Positions 2,431-22,251 of a stretch of 45,104 nucleotides of DNA are shown here, piece after piece; the first letter of the stretch is position 1; each line of letters opens with the position of its first letter. Made by a program: the position numbers and the translations under genes. The notes under the pieces are model-generated. The model saw nothing but the letters and a program-made list of their open reading frames with translations, was not told the origin of the DNA and did no database searches. This DNA is from Candidatus Diapherotrites archaeon ADurb.Bin253 (GTDB lineage Archaea; Nanobdellota; Nanobdellia; Pacearchaeales; GW2011-AR1). The stretch is taken from the NCBI GenBank assembly GCA_002069705.1, contig MWBV01000005.1:1-45104 (forward strand), read 5' to 3'.

Positions 2431-4611
2431 ATGAGAGTGATAGTTGGATTTATGGTGCTTTTTGGAGTTGTATTATTATTTTTAATGTCGAGATTTAATT
2501 TCTCAGATACAGTTGATTCAATTCTTTTAAGTTTGGTTGCAGGAATAATTGTATTTATATTTGTTTCAGGTTTAACTTACTCTAGTTTAAGTAATAGAAG
2601 CGATAAGTTAAATAATACTGAAAGTAAAATAAAGAAGAGGAAGAAAAAAGCTAATTTAGTTGGTTTAATTTTTATGGTTGTTTTTATGATTGTTTTCTTT
2701 AATTTTTATCTTCATATTAAAACAATGCTTGGAAATGATTTACTTGTTTCTTTGAATATAGAAGAAGAGAATTTTGTAATTAAGAATGGAGAAGAAGTAA
2801 ATATTGAAATAACAGCGAAGGTTTTAACAAATCCTTTCTGTAAAGCTAATTGTTCTCTTACATTAAGAGATTTAAGCAACGATGAATTAATATATGAGGA
2901 TAATATTTTTATTAAAGTATCAAGTCCTTTATCTAAAGAATATAAGATATCTTCTGCTTGGGAACAATCAGGTCAAAAGTTATACAAGGTCACTCTTCAT
3001 TGTAATAATGTGAAAGATAGATTTTGTTATTCTTATAACCCTTCTCCTGCCTTAAGAACAAGAATTATTTCTGTTGACCATGATTTAAATGAAATACAAG
3101 AATTAATAAAAAATAATTTAAAAAATAATATTAAAGATATGAATACAGAGGTTTATATTATAGATAATAATTTAGGAGATTTTAATTTTGATAAACCTTA
3201 CTTAAATTTATCAGATTTAAGAGAAAATAGCATTATTATTAATAACTCTTTGATTTCTATTAAAGAAAACATGAGTTCTTTAAGTTCATTGTATTTATCT
3301 CAGGATTATTTTAAACTTGGAACTGATGTTTATAATTTGAATCAAGAGATTGTAAAATTAAATTCTTCTTTTAATGAATTGAATTCTTCTTATTTTGGAA
3401 ATATTAGTTTGTATAATCTTGTTTTAGCCAATTTGTCCATTATGCATCAAGAGATTATTTATCTTGAGGATTATAATTTTAGTGAATATTCACTCGAACT
3501 TGCAAAATCTTTTATTAATGACTTTAATTCATTTATCTCAATAATGGAAGATAAGAATAGCGCTTCTTTTAAACTTGAGAAATTTAATGAACTTTCTTTA
3601 AAGAAAGAAAATCTTAGTTTTGTTTTACAAGATGAACTGATTAATAATATTTCTAGAGAAAATAAACTGAATATTTCTATTTATGATGTTAATTTACCTA
3701 AATTTAATATTGAATATAAAAATTATACTTTAGATTTTGTTTTGGGAGAGCCTTCTCCTATTTGTTGTTTACATAATGAATGTTATGATTGTATAGATGA
3801 TGCTTCTTTGAATTATCCTATTATTTTTGTCCATGGGCATAGTTTCAATGAAAAGATTTCTCCTGAATTAAGTATGGATTCTTTTGGAGGGATGGCAGGT
3901 CAATTAGAAAAAGATGGGGGATATTTAGATGCAGGTTATTTTTATAGAAGCCAGTATGATGAAGGTTCAAAAGGGTATCTTGGAAGAGTTAATAGCACCA
4001 TTGTTGTTGAGGCCACTTACTATATAGATACTGTTGTTACAGATGATGGTTCATTTATGCTTACTTCTAAATGGGAGAGTATTGATACTTATGCTTCTCG
4101 TTTAAATGATATTGTTTCTAATGTTAAATATATTACAGGTAAAGATAAAGTAATTATTGTTGCCCATAGTATGGGAGGGTTAGTTACAAGAAAATATATT
4201 CAACTTTATGGGGAGGATAGTTTAGAAAAAATAGTTCTTATAGGAATACCTAATCATGGAGTGGATGGTTTTGTTTTAAATTATTGTGCAGTTTTTGGTG
4301 CTGATTTGGAATGTAGTGAGATGAATAAAAGCAGCGAATTTATCTTAAATTTAAATAGTGTTCCATTGCCAGATATTCCTATTTATAATTTAGTTGGTGT
4401 TGGATGTTTTTGGGAGGGTTCTGATGGAGATGGAATAGTTAAGAGTTCAAGTGCATATTTAGATGGAGCTGAAAATATTTATGTTAATGGAACTTGTAAT
4501 CTTGTAGATTTTTTCCATGTTAGGATGGTTCATCCAAGTCTTCATCCAGAAATATATAATATTGTTAAAGAAAAAATAGAGATAAAAGAGGTTTATACCT
4601 CTGTTGCATAA
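2431..4611 (+). CDS. Membrane-anchored alpha/beta-hydrolase (lipase-like)
   Basis: A 726-aa protein. Three hydrophobic segments fill the first 100 residues (about 3-19, 28-50 and 75-95). A long Asn/Ser/Leu-rich region (100-430) follows, with beta-sandwich then coiled-coil character, and the C-terminal third is an alpha/beta-hydrolase. The hydrolase shows the oxyanion-type FVHGHSF (His468-Gly469) and the nucleophile elbow AHSMGG with Ser580. Asp665 or Asp667 lies in GSDGDGIV, and His696 or His701 is near the end; these are candidate Asp and His of the triad. The order matches triacylglycerol lipases and lipase-like esterases. The catalytic domain is probably outside the cell, on a long stalk. 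Possible substrates are lipids or other esters from neighbouring cells, which would suit a symbiotic archaeon; the substrate is not visible from sequence. Its 3' end overlaps the convergent gene by 19 nt. Confidence 0.8.
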   Translation: MRVIVGFMVLFGVVLLFLMSRFNFSDTVDSILLSLVAGIIVFIFVSGLTYSSLSNRSDKLNNTESKIKKRKKKANLVGLIFMVVFMIVFFNFYLHIKTMLGNDLLVSLNIEEENFVIKNGEEVNIEITAKVLTNPFCKANCSLTLRDLSNDELIYEDNIFIKVSSPLSKEYKISSAWEQSGQKLYKVTLHCNNVKDRFCYSYNPSPALRTRIISVDHDLNEIQELIKNNLKNNIKDMNTEVYIIDNNLGDFNFDKPYLNLSDLRENSIIINNSLISIKENMSSLSSLYLSQDYFKLGTDVYNLNQEIVKLNSSFNELNSSYFGNISLYNLVLANLSIMHQEIIYLEDYNFSEYSLELAKSFINDFNSFISIMEDKNSASFKLEKFNELSLKKENLSFVLQDELINNISRENKLNISIYDVNLPKFNIEYKNYTLDFVLGEPSPICCLHNECYDCIDDASLNYPIIFVHGHSFNEKISPELSMDSFGGMAGQLEKDGGYLDAGYFYRSQYDEGSKGYLGRVNSTIVVEATYYIDTVVTDDGSFMLTSKWESIDTYASRLNDIVSNVKYITGKDKVIIVAHSMGGLVTRKYIQLYGEDSLEKIVLIGIPNHGVDGFVLNYCAVFGADLECSEMNKSSEFILNLNSVPLPDIPIYNLVGVGCFWEGSDGDGIVKSSSAYLDGAENIYVNGTCNLVDFFHVRMVHPSLHPEIYNIVKEKIEIKEVYTSVA

Positions 4612-18512: not shown

Positions 18513-19637
18513 TCAATAATCTTCTTTGATTTGCGGGTATTCGTGAGTGTTTCCCTCATAGTTCTTAAGAACAACCTTGTCCTTGTCTATACTTTGAACA
18601 TATTCTGGTAATAAAGGTATTTTTCCTCCTCCTCCTGGAGCATCAATTACAAATTGTGGGACTGCGAGTCCTGAAGTATGTCCTCTTAATGATTTGTATA
18701 TTTCAAGTCCTTTTTCAACTCTTGTCCTGAAGTGATTTGCACCTTTAACTGTATCGCATTGATAAATGTAATAAGGTCTTACTCTAATACTCAATAAACC
18801 TAGCATTAGTTTTTTCATTGTTTCTGGATTATCATTTACTCCTTTAAGAAGAACTGTTTGATTTCCAACTGGGATTCCTGCATTAACAAGAAGTTCACAG
18901 GCTCTTTTGCTTTCTGGAGTTATTTCATTTGGGTGATTAAAATGAGTGTTTATGTAAATAGGGTGGTATTTTTTTAACATATCGCATAGTTCTTCTGTTA
19001 TTCTTTGAGGAAAAACACAAGGAATTCTTGTGCCTATTCTAATTATTCCATTTTCTCTTTTTGATATGATTGAGTGTACTGCTTTTATTATTTTTTCAAG
19101 TAGTTTATTAGGAAGCATTAAAGGGTCTCCTCCAGAAAGAATTACATCACGTATTTCAGGATGTTGTTTTATGTATAATATTGCTTTAGCCATTTCTTCC
19201 CATGTTGGATTTTTGGTTATATCTCCAACTTTTCTTTTTCTTGTACAAAATCTGCAATACATTGCACATGAATTTGAAATCCTGAAAAGAACTCTGTCTG
19301 GATACCTGTGAGTTAGAAGAGAAGGAACATTTTTTCTTTTTTGGTGTTCTGGTTCTTCATGAAGGGGGTCTTCTTCTCCACATAAGTCGTAAATTTCAGC
19401 AGAAGATGGAATACATTGTTTGTAAACCCCGTCCCCTTTTTCTTTTATTAAAGATAAATAGTAATCTGGAATTCTCATAGGATAATTACTACATATTTTC
19501 TTTAATTCGTCTTTATCCAAGTCAAATATCTTAGAAACCTCATCTATTGTCATGAATCTTTGGAATTTTTCTTGCACAGCTTTACATTTTACTTCTTCTT
19601 TTTTCTTCTCTGCTAATTGTAATCTGTTGCATTCCAC
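18513..19637 (-). CDS. kamA: Lysine 2,3-aminomutase
   Basis: A 374-aa radical SAM/PLP enzyme that turns L-alpha-lysine into L-beta-lysine. The 4Fe-4S/SAM motif is Cys124-x3-Cys128-x2-Cys131 (CAMYCRFC). GGDP lies in VILSGGDPLMLP. The PLP lysine is Lys339 in DAPGGGGK. The two acidic residues that hold the substrate epsilon-amino group in the clostridial enzyme correspond to Asp295 and Asp332, and both are present; this favours lysine over glutamate as substrate. The C-terminus is short compared with the roughly 416-aa bacterial enzyme. No beta-lysine acetyltransferase gene (ablB) is near. The start overlaps the preceding gene by 25 nt; a later ATG (MTIDEV, residue 29) is possible. beta-Lysine could serve as osmolyte or protein modification; neither is shown here. 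Confidence 0.9.
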   Translation of the reverse strand: MECNRLQLAEKKKEEVKCKAVQEKFQRFMTIDEVSKIFDLDKDELKKICSNYPMRIPDYYLSLIKEKGDGVYKQCIPSSAEIYDLCGEEDPLHEEPEHQKRKNVPSLLTHRYPDRVLFRISNSCAMYCRFCTRKRKVGDITKNPTWEEMAKAILYIKQHPEIRDVILSGGDPLMLPNKLLEKIIKAVHSIISKRENGIIRIGTRIPCVFPQRITEELCDMLKKYHPIYINTHFNHPNEITPESKRACELLVNAGIPVGNQTVLLKGVNDNPETMKKLMLGLLSIRVRPYYIYQCDTVKGANHFRTRVEKGLEIYKSLRGHTSGLAVPQFVIDAPGGGGKIPLLPEYVQSIDKDKVVLKNYEGNTHEYPQIKEDY

Positions 19638-20173
19638 TTTATTTCTCTCTCATCAGTTGTTTTCTCTTCATCAAAAGAGGACAAGGAATAGATTTTATCT
19701 TTTTCTTGTGTTTCTCTTAATTCCAAGTAATATTTTTTTTCTTTGTTATCATCTTTTATAAATGTTTGGAAAAAAATAAAGTTATATTCGGTGTTTTTAA
19801 AATAAAAATTTTGATTTTTGCGATTTTTTACTGAATTTTCTTTATTTATTTCCAGATAATCTGTATTTATTTGACTTAAACTCTCGTTGCTGGTGTTTAT
19901 CTCTGAGAATCTAATTTTCTTTTGAGAAGTTGTTGTGCTGTTTTTTGAGAATGATTTTTCAAGAGCAGAATAATCTTCTAAATATTGGTTGTTTACAGGG
20001 TTGTTTTTTATCCTATCTTCTAGTTTTTTATTATTTGAGTTGTTTAGAGTATTTCCATTATTTTCAATCTTTAAAGAAAACACCAATTGTGGAAGATTTT
20101 TACCCTTATTTTTCACTTCTTTTTTTCTTTGGAATTTGGGAGGTGGTTCGTTGTCTGACAATAATTGTATCAT
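19613..20173 (-). CDS. Predicted disordered Asn/Lys-rich protein
   Basis: This 186-aa frame precedes and overlaps kamA (25 nt). Composition is polar and repetitive (NNGNTLNNSNNKKLEDRIKNNP), with few hydrophobic residues, no cysteines and no clear domain, so it is likely to be largely unstructured. One more hydrophobic patch (YNFIFFQTFI) lies near residue 130. A TATA-like TTTTTAAATAAAG stands about 34 nt upstream of the ATG. No homologue is recognised. Support comes from the open frame over 560 bases, the promoter-like box and the overlap with kamA; it could still be a chance frame in an AT-rich leader of kamA. Confidence 0.45.
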   Translation of the reverse strand: MIQLLSDNEPPPKFQRKKEVKNKGKNLPQLVFSLKIENNGNTLNNSNNKKLEDRIKNNPVNNQYLEDYSALEKSFSKNSTTTSQKKIRFSEINTSNESLSQINTDYLEINKENSVKNRKNQNFYFKNTEYNFIFFQTFIKDDNKEKKYYLELRETQEKDKIYSLSSFDEEKTTDEREIKWNATDYN

Positions 20174-20228: not shown

Positions 20229-20939
20229 TTATATCCAGCCAAGAATGATTCCTAATCCTACTAAGAAAAGCAAGATTCCTGCAGTTAAATGAAGTTTTCT
20301 GATGTTCTTTTCCTTCCATCCTGAAACATCTTCAACTCTCGCTAATCCAAGATATACAATTAAGGTTATAACTATCATTGGTAATATGAAAACAAGGTTA
20401 TAATACAGTAACCAAGGTATTGCTCCAATTGTTCCTAATTCAGAAAGTAAACCTGAAGCTACAATATATGGACCTATTGTGCAAGGTAACAGGAATAAGG
20501 TTACAATAAATCCTATTAAGAATGCAGATTTAGGAGAGGTTATATTTCCAATTATTTTTTTTACTTTTGGTCTCATAAAGATTGGCATTTCTGTCCCAAA
20601 ACTACCTGCTTTATAGAAAAAGAAGTCCTTTATGTTTAATGCTCCTATAATCATGGCTAATATTGCTAAGCCATTGTAAACATATTTAGAACCTTCTCTT
20701 AAAAATTCAGCAAAAACTTTGAAGAATTGTATAATTATGACCCCATATGCTAAATATCCGATAAATACTGCAAGTGAGAAAGCTAATCCAGCAAAAAGAA
20801 CCTTTTTTTTATTTCTTGGGTTTGCTAAAAGTATTGAGACTAGAACCATTGTAAGAACAGCTATTTCACAGGGATTAACTGAGTCTGCAAGTGCAAGAAG
20901 AGTTATTCTTCCTAAAGTGAATGTTTCAGATACAACCAT
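20229..20939 (-). CDS. CcdA/DsbD-like thiol-disulfide transporter
   Basis: A 236-aa polytopic protein with about six helices. The family cysteines sit in paired places: Cys24 in DSVNPCEIAV (start of TM1) and Cys153 in LFLLPCTIGPYIV (TM4). Both are in the NPC/LPC context of CcdA and DsbD transmembrane domains. Such proteins carry electrons from cytoplasmic thioredoxin to outside thiol proteins. The partner could be the anchored thioredoxin-like protein encoded at 21543-21896. It is the last gene of the DUF5320-DUF134 operon, 26 bp behind the regulator, so expression is probably tied to that regulator. No cytochrome c genes are in the window, so a role in reducing outside disulfides is more likely. 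Confidence 0.87.
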   Translation of the reverse strand: MVVSETFTLGRITLLALADSVNPCEIAVLTMVLVSILLANPRNKKKVLFAGLAFSLAVFIGYLAYGVIIIQFFKVFAEFLREGSKYVYNGLAILAMIIGALNIKDFFFYKAGSFGTEMPIFMRPKVKKIIGNITSPKSAFLIGFIVTLFLLPCTIGPYIVASGLLSELGTIGAIPWLLYYNLVFILPMIVITLIVYLGLARVEDVSGWKEKNIRKLHLTAGILLFLVGLGIILGWI

Positions 20940-20965
20940 TTTGTATTTTCTTATTTATTTAATTA

Positions 20966-21250
20966 CTAATTTAAATCTTTCGAAATTTTTATTGCTTTCC
21001 CATTAATTATAGAATCTGCTATTTTTTTTCTTGCAGAAGCAAGTGTTCTTGAGAGTGTAGGTTGAGAAATTTGCATTTGTTTTGCTGCTTCTTCTTGAGA
21101 GATTTCTTGAAAATCCACAAGTCTTATTGCTTCAAATTCAGAAATTTCTAATTCTGTTTCTTTTAATTCTCTTATTAGAATTCCTGCTGGTTTAAAATAA
21201 TTGGATTGGGGGTTGCCTCTAATCCTTCTCCTTTTACATGGACGAGGCAT
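20966..21250 (-). CDS. DUF134/UPF0251 helix-turn-helix regulator
   Basis: A 94-aa DNA-binding protein starting MPRPCKRRRIRGNP, the usual start of the UPF0251/DUF134 family. LEISEFEAIRLVD and a sigma-like HTH follow (ISQEEAAKQMQISQPTLSRTLASARKKIADSI, about 49-80). A GTG at 21331 would add 27 residues, but that extension is only the wrong frame of the upstream DUF5320-like gene. The true ATG is at 21250, five bases after that gene's stop, with AGGAG and AAGTGA Shine-Dalgarno-like bases upstream. The perfect palindrome in the operon promoter is a natural binding site for it; that link is inference. Confidence 0.85.
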   Translation of the reverse strand: MPRPCKRRRIRGNPQSNYFKPAGILIRELKETELEISEFEAIRLVDFQEISQEEAAKQMQISQPTLSRTLASARKKIADSIINGKAIKISKDLN

Positions 21251-21254
21251 TTTA

Positions 21255-21398
21255 TTATTCACTTCTCCTGTTAAATCTTCTGTTTCTACCCAATCCTCTT
21301 CTTTTTCCTCTTTGGGGTTCTGCTCCTTCACAGTTTCCCATTTGTCTTCCTGTTTTCGGTCCTTTTCCTTCTGGTCCTGTTTTGTCTTTATTTGGCAT
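21255..21398 (-). CDS. DUF5320-like small Gly/Arg-rich protein
   Basis: A 47-aa protein, easily missed for its size. It reads MPNKDKTGPEGKGPKTGRQM and then GNCEGAEPQ followed by an Arg-rich tail ending RRFNRRSE. The TGPxGxGPxTGR-x-GxC block is the signature of the small DUF5320 proteins. These often sit beside DUF134 regulators and iron-molybdenum-cofactor-like (NifX/NifB) genes in anaerobes. One cysteine (Cys23) is present. An AGGAG Shine-Dalgarno (21410-21414) precedes the ATG. It is the first gene of the operon DUF5320-DUF134-CcdA, behind the palindrome at 21423-21442. No NifX-like gene is present here; the function is unknown. Confidence 0.8.
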   Translation of the reverse strand: MPNKDKTGPEGKGPKTGRQMGNCEGAEPQRGKRRGLGRNRRFNRRSE

Positions 21399-21422
21399 TT
21401 TTGTATTTTCTCCTGTTTTTAG

Positions 21423-21442
21423 TTATGAATATATATTCATAA
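21423..21442. promoter_or_regulatory. Perfect 20-bp palindrome, probable operator
   Basis: TTATGAATATATATTCATAA reads the same on both strands without a mismatch. It begins about 25 bases before the DUF5320-like ATG and ends next to the TATA-like box at 21445-21455. It therefore covers the space between TATA and the predicted transcription start. A dimeric regulator bound here would block initiation. The DUF134 protein of the same operon is the obvious candidate. Confidence 0.65.
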
Positions 21443-21444
21443 TT

Positions 21445-21455
21445 ATATTTAAATG
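21445..21455 (-). promoter_or_regulatory. TATA-like box of the DUF5320-DUF134-CcdA operon
   Basis: CATTTAAATATA-type sequence on the minus strand. It predicts a start of transcription near 21424 and a leader of about 25 nt that holds the AGGAG ribosome site. Confidence 0.5.
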
Positions 21456-21542: not shown

Positions 21543-21896
21543 TTAACATCCTGTTAATTCTTTTAATTTTTCAATTGTTTGAACACCAACAACTTTTTCT
21601 TGATTTATAATCCAGGTTGGAGTGTACTCTATTTCATTGCATTTATCTCTTTCATACCAACAATCAATTACATTAAGGTATTTGTAATTATTTCCAAATA
21701 ATTCTCTTTGACTTTCACAAGCATGGCATCCCAATTGAGTATATAGTGTTGTTTTAGATGCAATACATTTTATTTCTTTTTCATCTGTTTCAACTGGCTT
21801 TTTTGAGAGTGCAAGAATTGCTATAATTAAAATGATAATTATTATTGCAAGAGTTATTATATTACTTTTTATTTGTTTTTTTGTTGGTCTTTTCAT
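21543..21896 (-). CDS. Membrane-anchored thioredoxin/glutaredoxin-like protein
   Basis: A 117-aa protein. A Lys-rich N-terminus is followed by one transmembrane helix (about 12-31, a run of Ile/Ala/Leu). The C-terminal small thioredoxin-like domain has the active-site Cys57-His-Ala-Cys60 in LYTQLGCHACESQ. TPTWII near residue 95 contains the cis-proline expected of the fold, and three more cysteines (78, 85 and 117) are present. It should act outside the membrane on protein disulfides. It resembles the thioredoxin domains that partner VKOR or DsbD/CcdA. It lies upstream of the CcdA operon on the same strand but outside it (145-bp gap with its own promoter). Oxidase or reductase direction is not visible. 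Confidence 0.82.
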   Translation of the reverse strand: MKRPTKKQIKSNIITLAIIIIILIIAILALSKKPVETDEKEIKCIASKTTLYTQLGCHACESQRELFGNNYKYLNVIDCWYERDKCNEIEYTPTWIINQEKVVGVQTIEKLKELTGC

Positions 21897-21957: not shown

Positions 21958-22251
21958 TTAATAATCAGGCAGTTCTTCTTGTGAAGCTGGTTTTTTTGGT
22001 TTTTTCTTTGTTTCTATTGGGGCAGATTCAGCTTCTGCAGCTAATTCTTCTTCTGAAACAGAATTAATCATTTCTTTGAATTTAGGAAAATCTGCTGAGC
22101 CTATTCTTATACCTGCTTTTGTGAATCCAGTATATCTGTCAGATGTAACATATTCTCTTATTGTAAGTCCTTTTCTTCCCCCAAAATCATCTATTCTTAT
22201 TATTATATCTGTTGAATCGTTTTTCTTTATTCTTCCTATGTCTTTTTCCAT
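21958..22251 (-). CDS. PC4-like ssDNA-binding transcription cofactor
   Basis: A 97-aa protein. Residues 1-65 fit the PC4/p15 fold: a beta-strand with IIIRIDDFGGRKGLTIREYVT, then GFTKAGIRIGSADFPKFKEMI. This is the strand-strand-helix order and the F-x-G-R-x-x-x-I-R core of PC4 (YdbC-type in bacteria). The family binds ssDNA or melted promoters as a dimer. The C-terminal 30 residues are charged and flexible (KKKPKKPASQEELPDY). A GGAG Shine-Dalgarno lies about 20 nt upstream, behind an AT-only palindromic promoter region (22293-22312). Confidence 0.78.
   Translation of the reverse strand: MEKDIGRIKKNDSTDIIIRIDDFGGRKGLTIREYVTSDRYTGFTKAGIRIGSADFPKFKEMINSVSEEELAAEAESAPIETKKKPKKPASQEELPDY

Follow-up and report, generated by a model that had tools for sequence, protein, structure and literature searches.

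The analysed window, a stretch of 45,104 nucleotides with a GC content of ~29%, belongs to an archaeal genome of 878 kb (95 contigs, 88.5% complete), the nearest DUF134 relatives of which are found in Pacearchaeota and other Nanoarchaeota. Read along its minus strand, the locus comprises a gene for a membrane-anchored CxxC thioredoxin-like protein (21543-21896), a TATA box TTTAAATA (21446-21453), the 20-bp palindrome TTATGAATATATATTCATAA (21423-21442), a Shine-Dalgarno sequence AGGAG (21410-21414), and three genes encoding a 47-aa DUF5320 protein (21255-21398), a 94-aa DUF134 protein (20966-21250) and a 236-aa CcdA-like membrane protein (20229-20939), with a gap of 4 nt between the first two and 26 nt between the last two. 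The three-gene layout, the gaps, the TATA-like box and the position of the palindrome were described in the original prediction, and every coordinate holds on re-analysis; the thioredoxin-like gene directly upstream on the same strand had been overlooked, and calling the 47-aa gene new went too far, because Pfam already lists DUF5320 as a family. Two further features were observed in the vicinity. At 18513-20173 (minus strand), a gene for a KamA-family radical SAM aminomutase (extending to 19637) overlaps a lysine/asparagine-rich 186-aa frame (19613-20173) in a different reading frame; the latter could encode the N-terminal part of the aminomutase, cut off by a frameshift or by faulty assembly. 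A PC4-like gene with a score under the Pfam cut-off (21958-22251, minus strand) adjoins the thioredoxin-like gene, and a gene similar to it is located at 3728-4030 of locus L160, also upstream of an operator.

The DUF134 protein, encoded by a single-copy gene in the source genome, matches PF02001 over the whole domain (88.1 bits against a cut-off of 27, E=5.9e-25). Its AF2 model (pLDDT 88) has a recognition helix formed by residues 63-83, with Q63 and R68. The top Foldseek matches of this model include sigma region 4 domains, superimposed at an rmsd of 0.6-1.0 A over 40-50 residues, and the DNA-binding domain of DeoR; the E-values are weak (at least 0.09) because the match spans only ~45 residues. 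Our search found no solved structure of DUF134 itself, the nearest one by sequence being the B. subtilis DeoR DNA-binding domain 7bhy (E 0.0016). The score against the sigma region 4 profile is 25.4 bits, below the cut-off of 25.7, and no other sigma region was matched; DUF134 appears to work like region 4 but, showing no match to region 2 (core and -10 binding), is not classed among the sigma factors. The family is present in ~28-30% of the sampled genomes from both the archaeal phylum of the source and the bacterial phylum of genome G136. Nothing functional was found in the open-licence PMC literature for DUF134, UPF0251, DUF5320 or the core operator, many literature matches to the term 'DUF134' being longer DUF numbers.

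The products of the neighboring genes were assigned with different degrees of certainty. DUF5320 is a clear member of PF17253 (43.9 bits against a cut-off of 27, E=5.6e-11). The CcdA-like protein passes the threshold of PF13386 (DsbD_2) marginally (25.5 against 24.9 bits, E=1.4e-5) and also matches PF11139 (SfLAP) with E=3e-7, below the cut-off of that family; its Cys24 (in NPC) and Cys153 (in LPCT) are invariant in five aligned sequences, and no close solved structure was found for it. The upstream protein has a CHAC motif (C57/C60) and a TPTW motif with the cis-proline P93, both kept in loci L005 and L008, and scores 16 bits against PF13462 (cut-off 23.2); as no profile match lies above the cut-off, we name it 'thioredoxin-like' only. 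In the source genome the thioredoxin-like gene is located before the operator. In L005 and L008 it sits between DUF134 and CcdA, and in three other loci (L213, L029 and L232) the thioredoxin and CcdA matches fall in one frame, so that the upstream thioredoxin very likely shares the function of CcdA and is a probable partner of the CcdA-like protein.

The palindrome TTATGAATATATATTCATAA is free of mismatches over its 20 bp and lies 3 nt downstream of the TATA box, and this CATTTAAATAGTA-operator arrangement is common to most archaeal relatives. The 878-kb genome contains one exact copy of the sequence and two more places that match it with three mismatches each. A sigma70 promoter scan of the window gave no excess, as is to be expected of an archaeal genome. 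We searched the upstream regions of DUF134 relatives from public genomes for the palindrome, and identified it in identical form (20/20) upstream of DUF134 in five archaeal loci (L013, L015, L022, L028, L043) and in three loci of Deltaproteobacteria (L038, L040, L041), while many other relatives have an upstream palindrome with one to four changes. Variant operators occur in Bacillota (TTATTGACATATGTCAATAA), Bacteroidota (TTATGAGCATATGCTCATAA), Chloroflexota and Patescibacteria, including Saccharibacteria (TTATGGGTATATACTCATAA), as well as in L046 and L050 (TTATGCATATATATGCATAA), and those of distant relatives keep the frame TTAT....ATAT....ATAA. Conservation of the palindrome upstream of DUF134 orthologues, on which the original prediction hinged, is therefore strong in both archaea and bacteria.

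Relative to the promoter, the site of archaea lies 2-3 nt past the TATA box and that of bacteria covers the -35/-10 region, a placement that fits repression of the downstream genes. In 10 of 44 archaeal promoters (L013, L086, L097 and L131 among others), a second, weaker copy is present 38-39 bp upstream or nearby, which places one site on either side of the TATA box. A different pattern was observed in genome G007 (L143-L149), which has about eight dispersed DUF134-type sites, most of them a tandem pair with 25-bp spacing and some located between convergent genes, away from promoters. These sites may belong to a larger regulon or else to a repeat scattered through the genome, and they do not agree with simple autorepression.

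The occurrence of the palindrome, scored as present at up to two mismatches, was compared with the occurrence of DUF134 across genomes. The sample from the same order comprises 132 genomes: 34 of the 40 that encode DUF134 also have the palindrome, whereas all 92 that lack DUF134 are without it (Fisher test, 9.6e-26). At the level of the phylum (279 genomes) the respective numbers are 49 of 78 and 10 of 201 (p=2.7e-24), whereas the reversed-sequence control gave no association in this sample (14 of 78 versus 36 of 201, p=1.0). The 29 DUF134-containing genomes of the phylum sample that have no site at this threshold may have divergent sites, remote sites, or no autoregulation. Inspection of four of the ten DUF134-negative genomes with a site showed that two of them (L250 in G394 and L251 in G360) have an operator and a DUF5320 operon running off the contig end, which probably explains why the assembly shows no DUF134, and that the remaining two are chance matches within genes. 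In 18 further genomes the site is present once in 17 cases and twice in one; these genomes were picked for having a DUF134 locus with a known site, and the single copy is therefore the site at the DUF134 promoter.

Analysis of mutual information between every residue and every base in 94 distinct DUF134 proteins with a clear site (188 half-sites), selected by a score that was blind to bases 5-8 except for pairing, allowed us to identify two residue-base pairs that stand at the top of the ranking. Residue 63 and base 8 rank first, with Gln accompanied by T in 112 of 112 half-sites and Arg by C in 76 of 76 (MI/H=1.0). The second-ranked pair is formed by residue 68 and base 5, where Arg is accompanied by G in 145 of 150 half-sites and other residues by T in 36 of 38 (181 of 188 overall). 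One Arg63 protein (L031), for which the best 20-mer does not match and no convincing palindrome was seen, was excluded from this count; with it included, Arg is accompanied by A in 2 of 78 half-sites. On the best tree the two pairs changed ~6 and ~5 times, respectively, always concordantly; only two concordant switches of each pair fall on well-supported branches, and the tree-independent count alone is for this reason not significant. Genomes G136 and G145 each encode two DUF134 paralogues, a Gln63 copy with a T8 operator and an Arg63 copy with a C8 operator. In the predicted structure, residue 63 opens the recognition helix and residue 68 is its sixth residue; in helices of this kind it is usually positions 1 and 6 that read the bases. 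As the palindrome recurs upstream of related operons in many archaea and bacteria and varies together with the recognition helix, it is very probably the control switch of DUF134 itself.

To describe the genes that accompany DUF134, we counted its same-strand neighbors, with DUF134 itself masked, in 87 archaeal and 75 bacterial loci; as many flanks are short, all counts are minimum numbers. The archaeal neighbors are DUF5320 (66 loci), NifX-type Nitro_FeMo-Co proteins (36), cation efflux proteins of the CDF type (31), CcdA (25), ArsP-like permease halves (22), thioredoxin (9) and ZIP (6), and the bacterial ones are NifX (29), DUF5320 (11), CDF (10) and CcdA (3). The 47-aa frame, whose absence from relatives would have spoken against the original prediction, is thus a regular companion of DUF134 in archaea; moreover, the two are fused in L046 and, by reading of the sequence, in L050. 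The proposal that a transporter takes the place of NifX at this locus stands in one part, as no NifX (PF02579) was found in the 88.5%-complete source genome, which leaves the CcdA-thioredoxin pair alone as cargo here. The pairing with CcdA is, however, not exceptional, since CcdA is a recurrent neighbor in DUF134 operons (28 of 162 loci). Several bacterial DUF134 proteins carry a fused NifX domain, and these fusions together with the neighbors point to sensing of a metal or a metal cofactor. DUF134 is fused to NifX (Nitro_FeMo-Co) in L041, L064, L079 and similar loci, in some of them with a His/Cys-rich tail, and such a fusion is possibly a metal-sensing form. Sensing of metal or redox state by DUF134 is only suggested by the cargo and by the NifX fusions with His/Cys-rich tails.

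Taken together, conservation, presence/absence and residue-base covariation strongly support the proposal that DUF134 binds the palindrome, and the protein has the features of an autoregulator, namely a conserved site at its own promoter that covaries with its helix-turn-helix. We consider it quite likely that DUF134 is a sigma4-like, dimeric autorepressor of a single operon that binds the 20-bp palindrome at the promoter of this operon. In the proposed mechanism, DUF134 would be a one-component transcription factor with a sigma region 4-like helix-turn-helix, and two copies of it would bind the adjoining half-sites TTATNNN[T/C]AT and AT[A/G]NNNATAA and repress their own operon. Residue 63 would read base pair 8 of the half-site, with Gln for T:A and Arg for C:G, and residue 68 would read base pair 5, with Arg for G. 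The circuit would be local, given that there is one site only in the source genome. An inducing signal, most likely metal or thiol-redox, would release the operon, yielding DUF5320, DUF134 and the CcdA-like electron transporter, from which reducing power would reach the membrane-anchored CxxC thioredoxin of the adjacent upstream gene. A parallel with sigma factors is suggested by the operators of Bacillota, in which the half-site TTA-TTGACA-T holds the hexamer TTGACA, base 8 being its C. Arg584 of sigma70 contacts the template base at -31, in the C:G pair of TTGACA, and the R584A mutant prefers A:T at this position (PMC2613000). We infer that Arg584 aligns with the helix position of DUF134 residue 63, and since base 8 in Bacillota corresponds to the C contacted by Arg584, DUF134 seems to use the same reading register on DNA as sigma does at the -35 box.

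Several other explanations of the palindrome were weighed against autorepression by DUF134. Activation by DUF134 bound to the same site, for example through recruitment of the polymerase, would agree with the resemblance of its fold to the -35-binding domain of sigma factors; we regard it as unlikely, because the archaeal site is placed past the TATA box but ahead of the expected start, a typical repressor position, the bacterial site inside the -35/-10 region is likewise repressor-like, and the second copy seen in 10 of 44 archaeal promoters places operators on both sides of the TATA box. The palindrome may instead belong to another regulator, with DUF134 as a mere passenger. ArsR/SmtB-type operators are likewise AT-rich palindromes, with TGAA half-sites (TGAA...TTCA), and metal transporters are among the cargo of DUF134 operons, which would suit a regulator of this type. 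This explanation is quite improbable given that residues 63 and 68 of the recognition helix predict operator bases 8 and 5, that the sites track DUF134 across genomes, and that paralogues within one genome have differing operators, each matching its own helix.

The two remaining explanations were rejected. The strand does fold into a hairpin at -4.5 kcal/mol (z=-3.9), as any DNA palindrome would, but a role as an RNA element in the 5' leader is highly improbable: with an expected start ~25 nt past the TATA box, transcription would begin no earlier than the distal end of the palindrome and leave most of it out, the palindrome of Bacillota contains the -35 box TTGACA, and an RNA element would not be expected to covary with protein residues. 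A chance origin, for which the ~29% GC content of the window could speak, is refuted by the 0.04 matches expected in the window at up to three mismatches, by the conservation across phyla and by the genome counts (34 of 40 versus none of 92), and its probability is negligible.

This work provides a predicted operator for a widespread family without a described function or binding site in the open-licence PMC literature, and a specificity code of two residues that single mutations can put to the test. The operator and the code for the DUF134 family are of more interest than the single operon analysed here. The cargo catalogue of DUF134 operons points to metal or thiol homeostasis, and the work opens a route to the little-known regulation of genes in uncultured DPANN archaea and provides a case of a sigma4-type reading head outside sigma factors in both archaea and bacteria. 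As a tentative generalization, in which our confidence is limited, the family could consist, in archaea as well as bacteria, of sigma4-like single-operon autorepressors whose residue-to-base code can be read, with -35 mimicry competing with sigma in Bacillota, with metal or redox sensing via fused or neighboring NifX or DUF5320, and with interchangeable metal-efflux or thiol-reduction cargo, represented here by CcdA and thioredoxin.

Comparison with known systems places the regulator within DUF134/UPF0251 (PF02001), with which it shares a full-length match, the N-terminal MPRP[C/R] and the helix-turn-helix, although it is a short form, with neither the NifX domain nor the Cys-rich tail that other members have. 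It resembles sigma70 region 4 in its fold and, as predicted, in the use of recognition-helix position 1, which would read the fifth base of a TTGACA-like hexamer; unlike sigma70, it is a stand-alone protein without other sigma regions, and its predicted site is a pair of inverted hexamers. The DNA-binding domain of B. subtilis DeoR (SorC family, 7bhy), an operator-binding regulator, is the nearest by sequence and among the top structural matches, whereas the large effector-binding domain of full-length DeoR is absent from DUF134. Finally, the cargo, a putative transporter, is similar to CcdA/DsbD in its DsbD_2 match, two conserved membrane cysteines and a CxxC thioredoxin-like partner, and it differs from these proteins in the marginal profile match, the additional match to SfLAP and the motifs NPC and LPCT.
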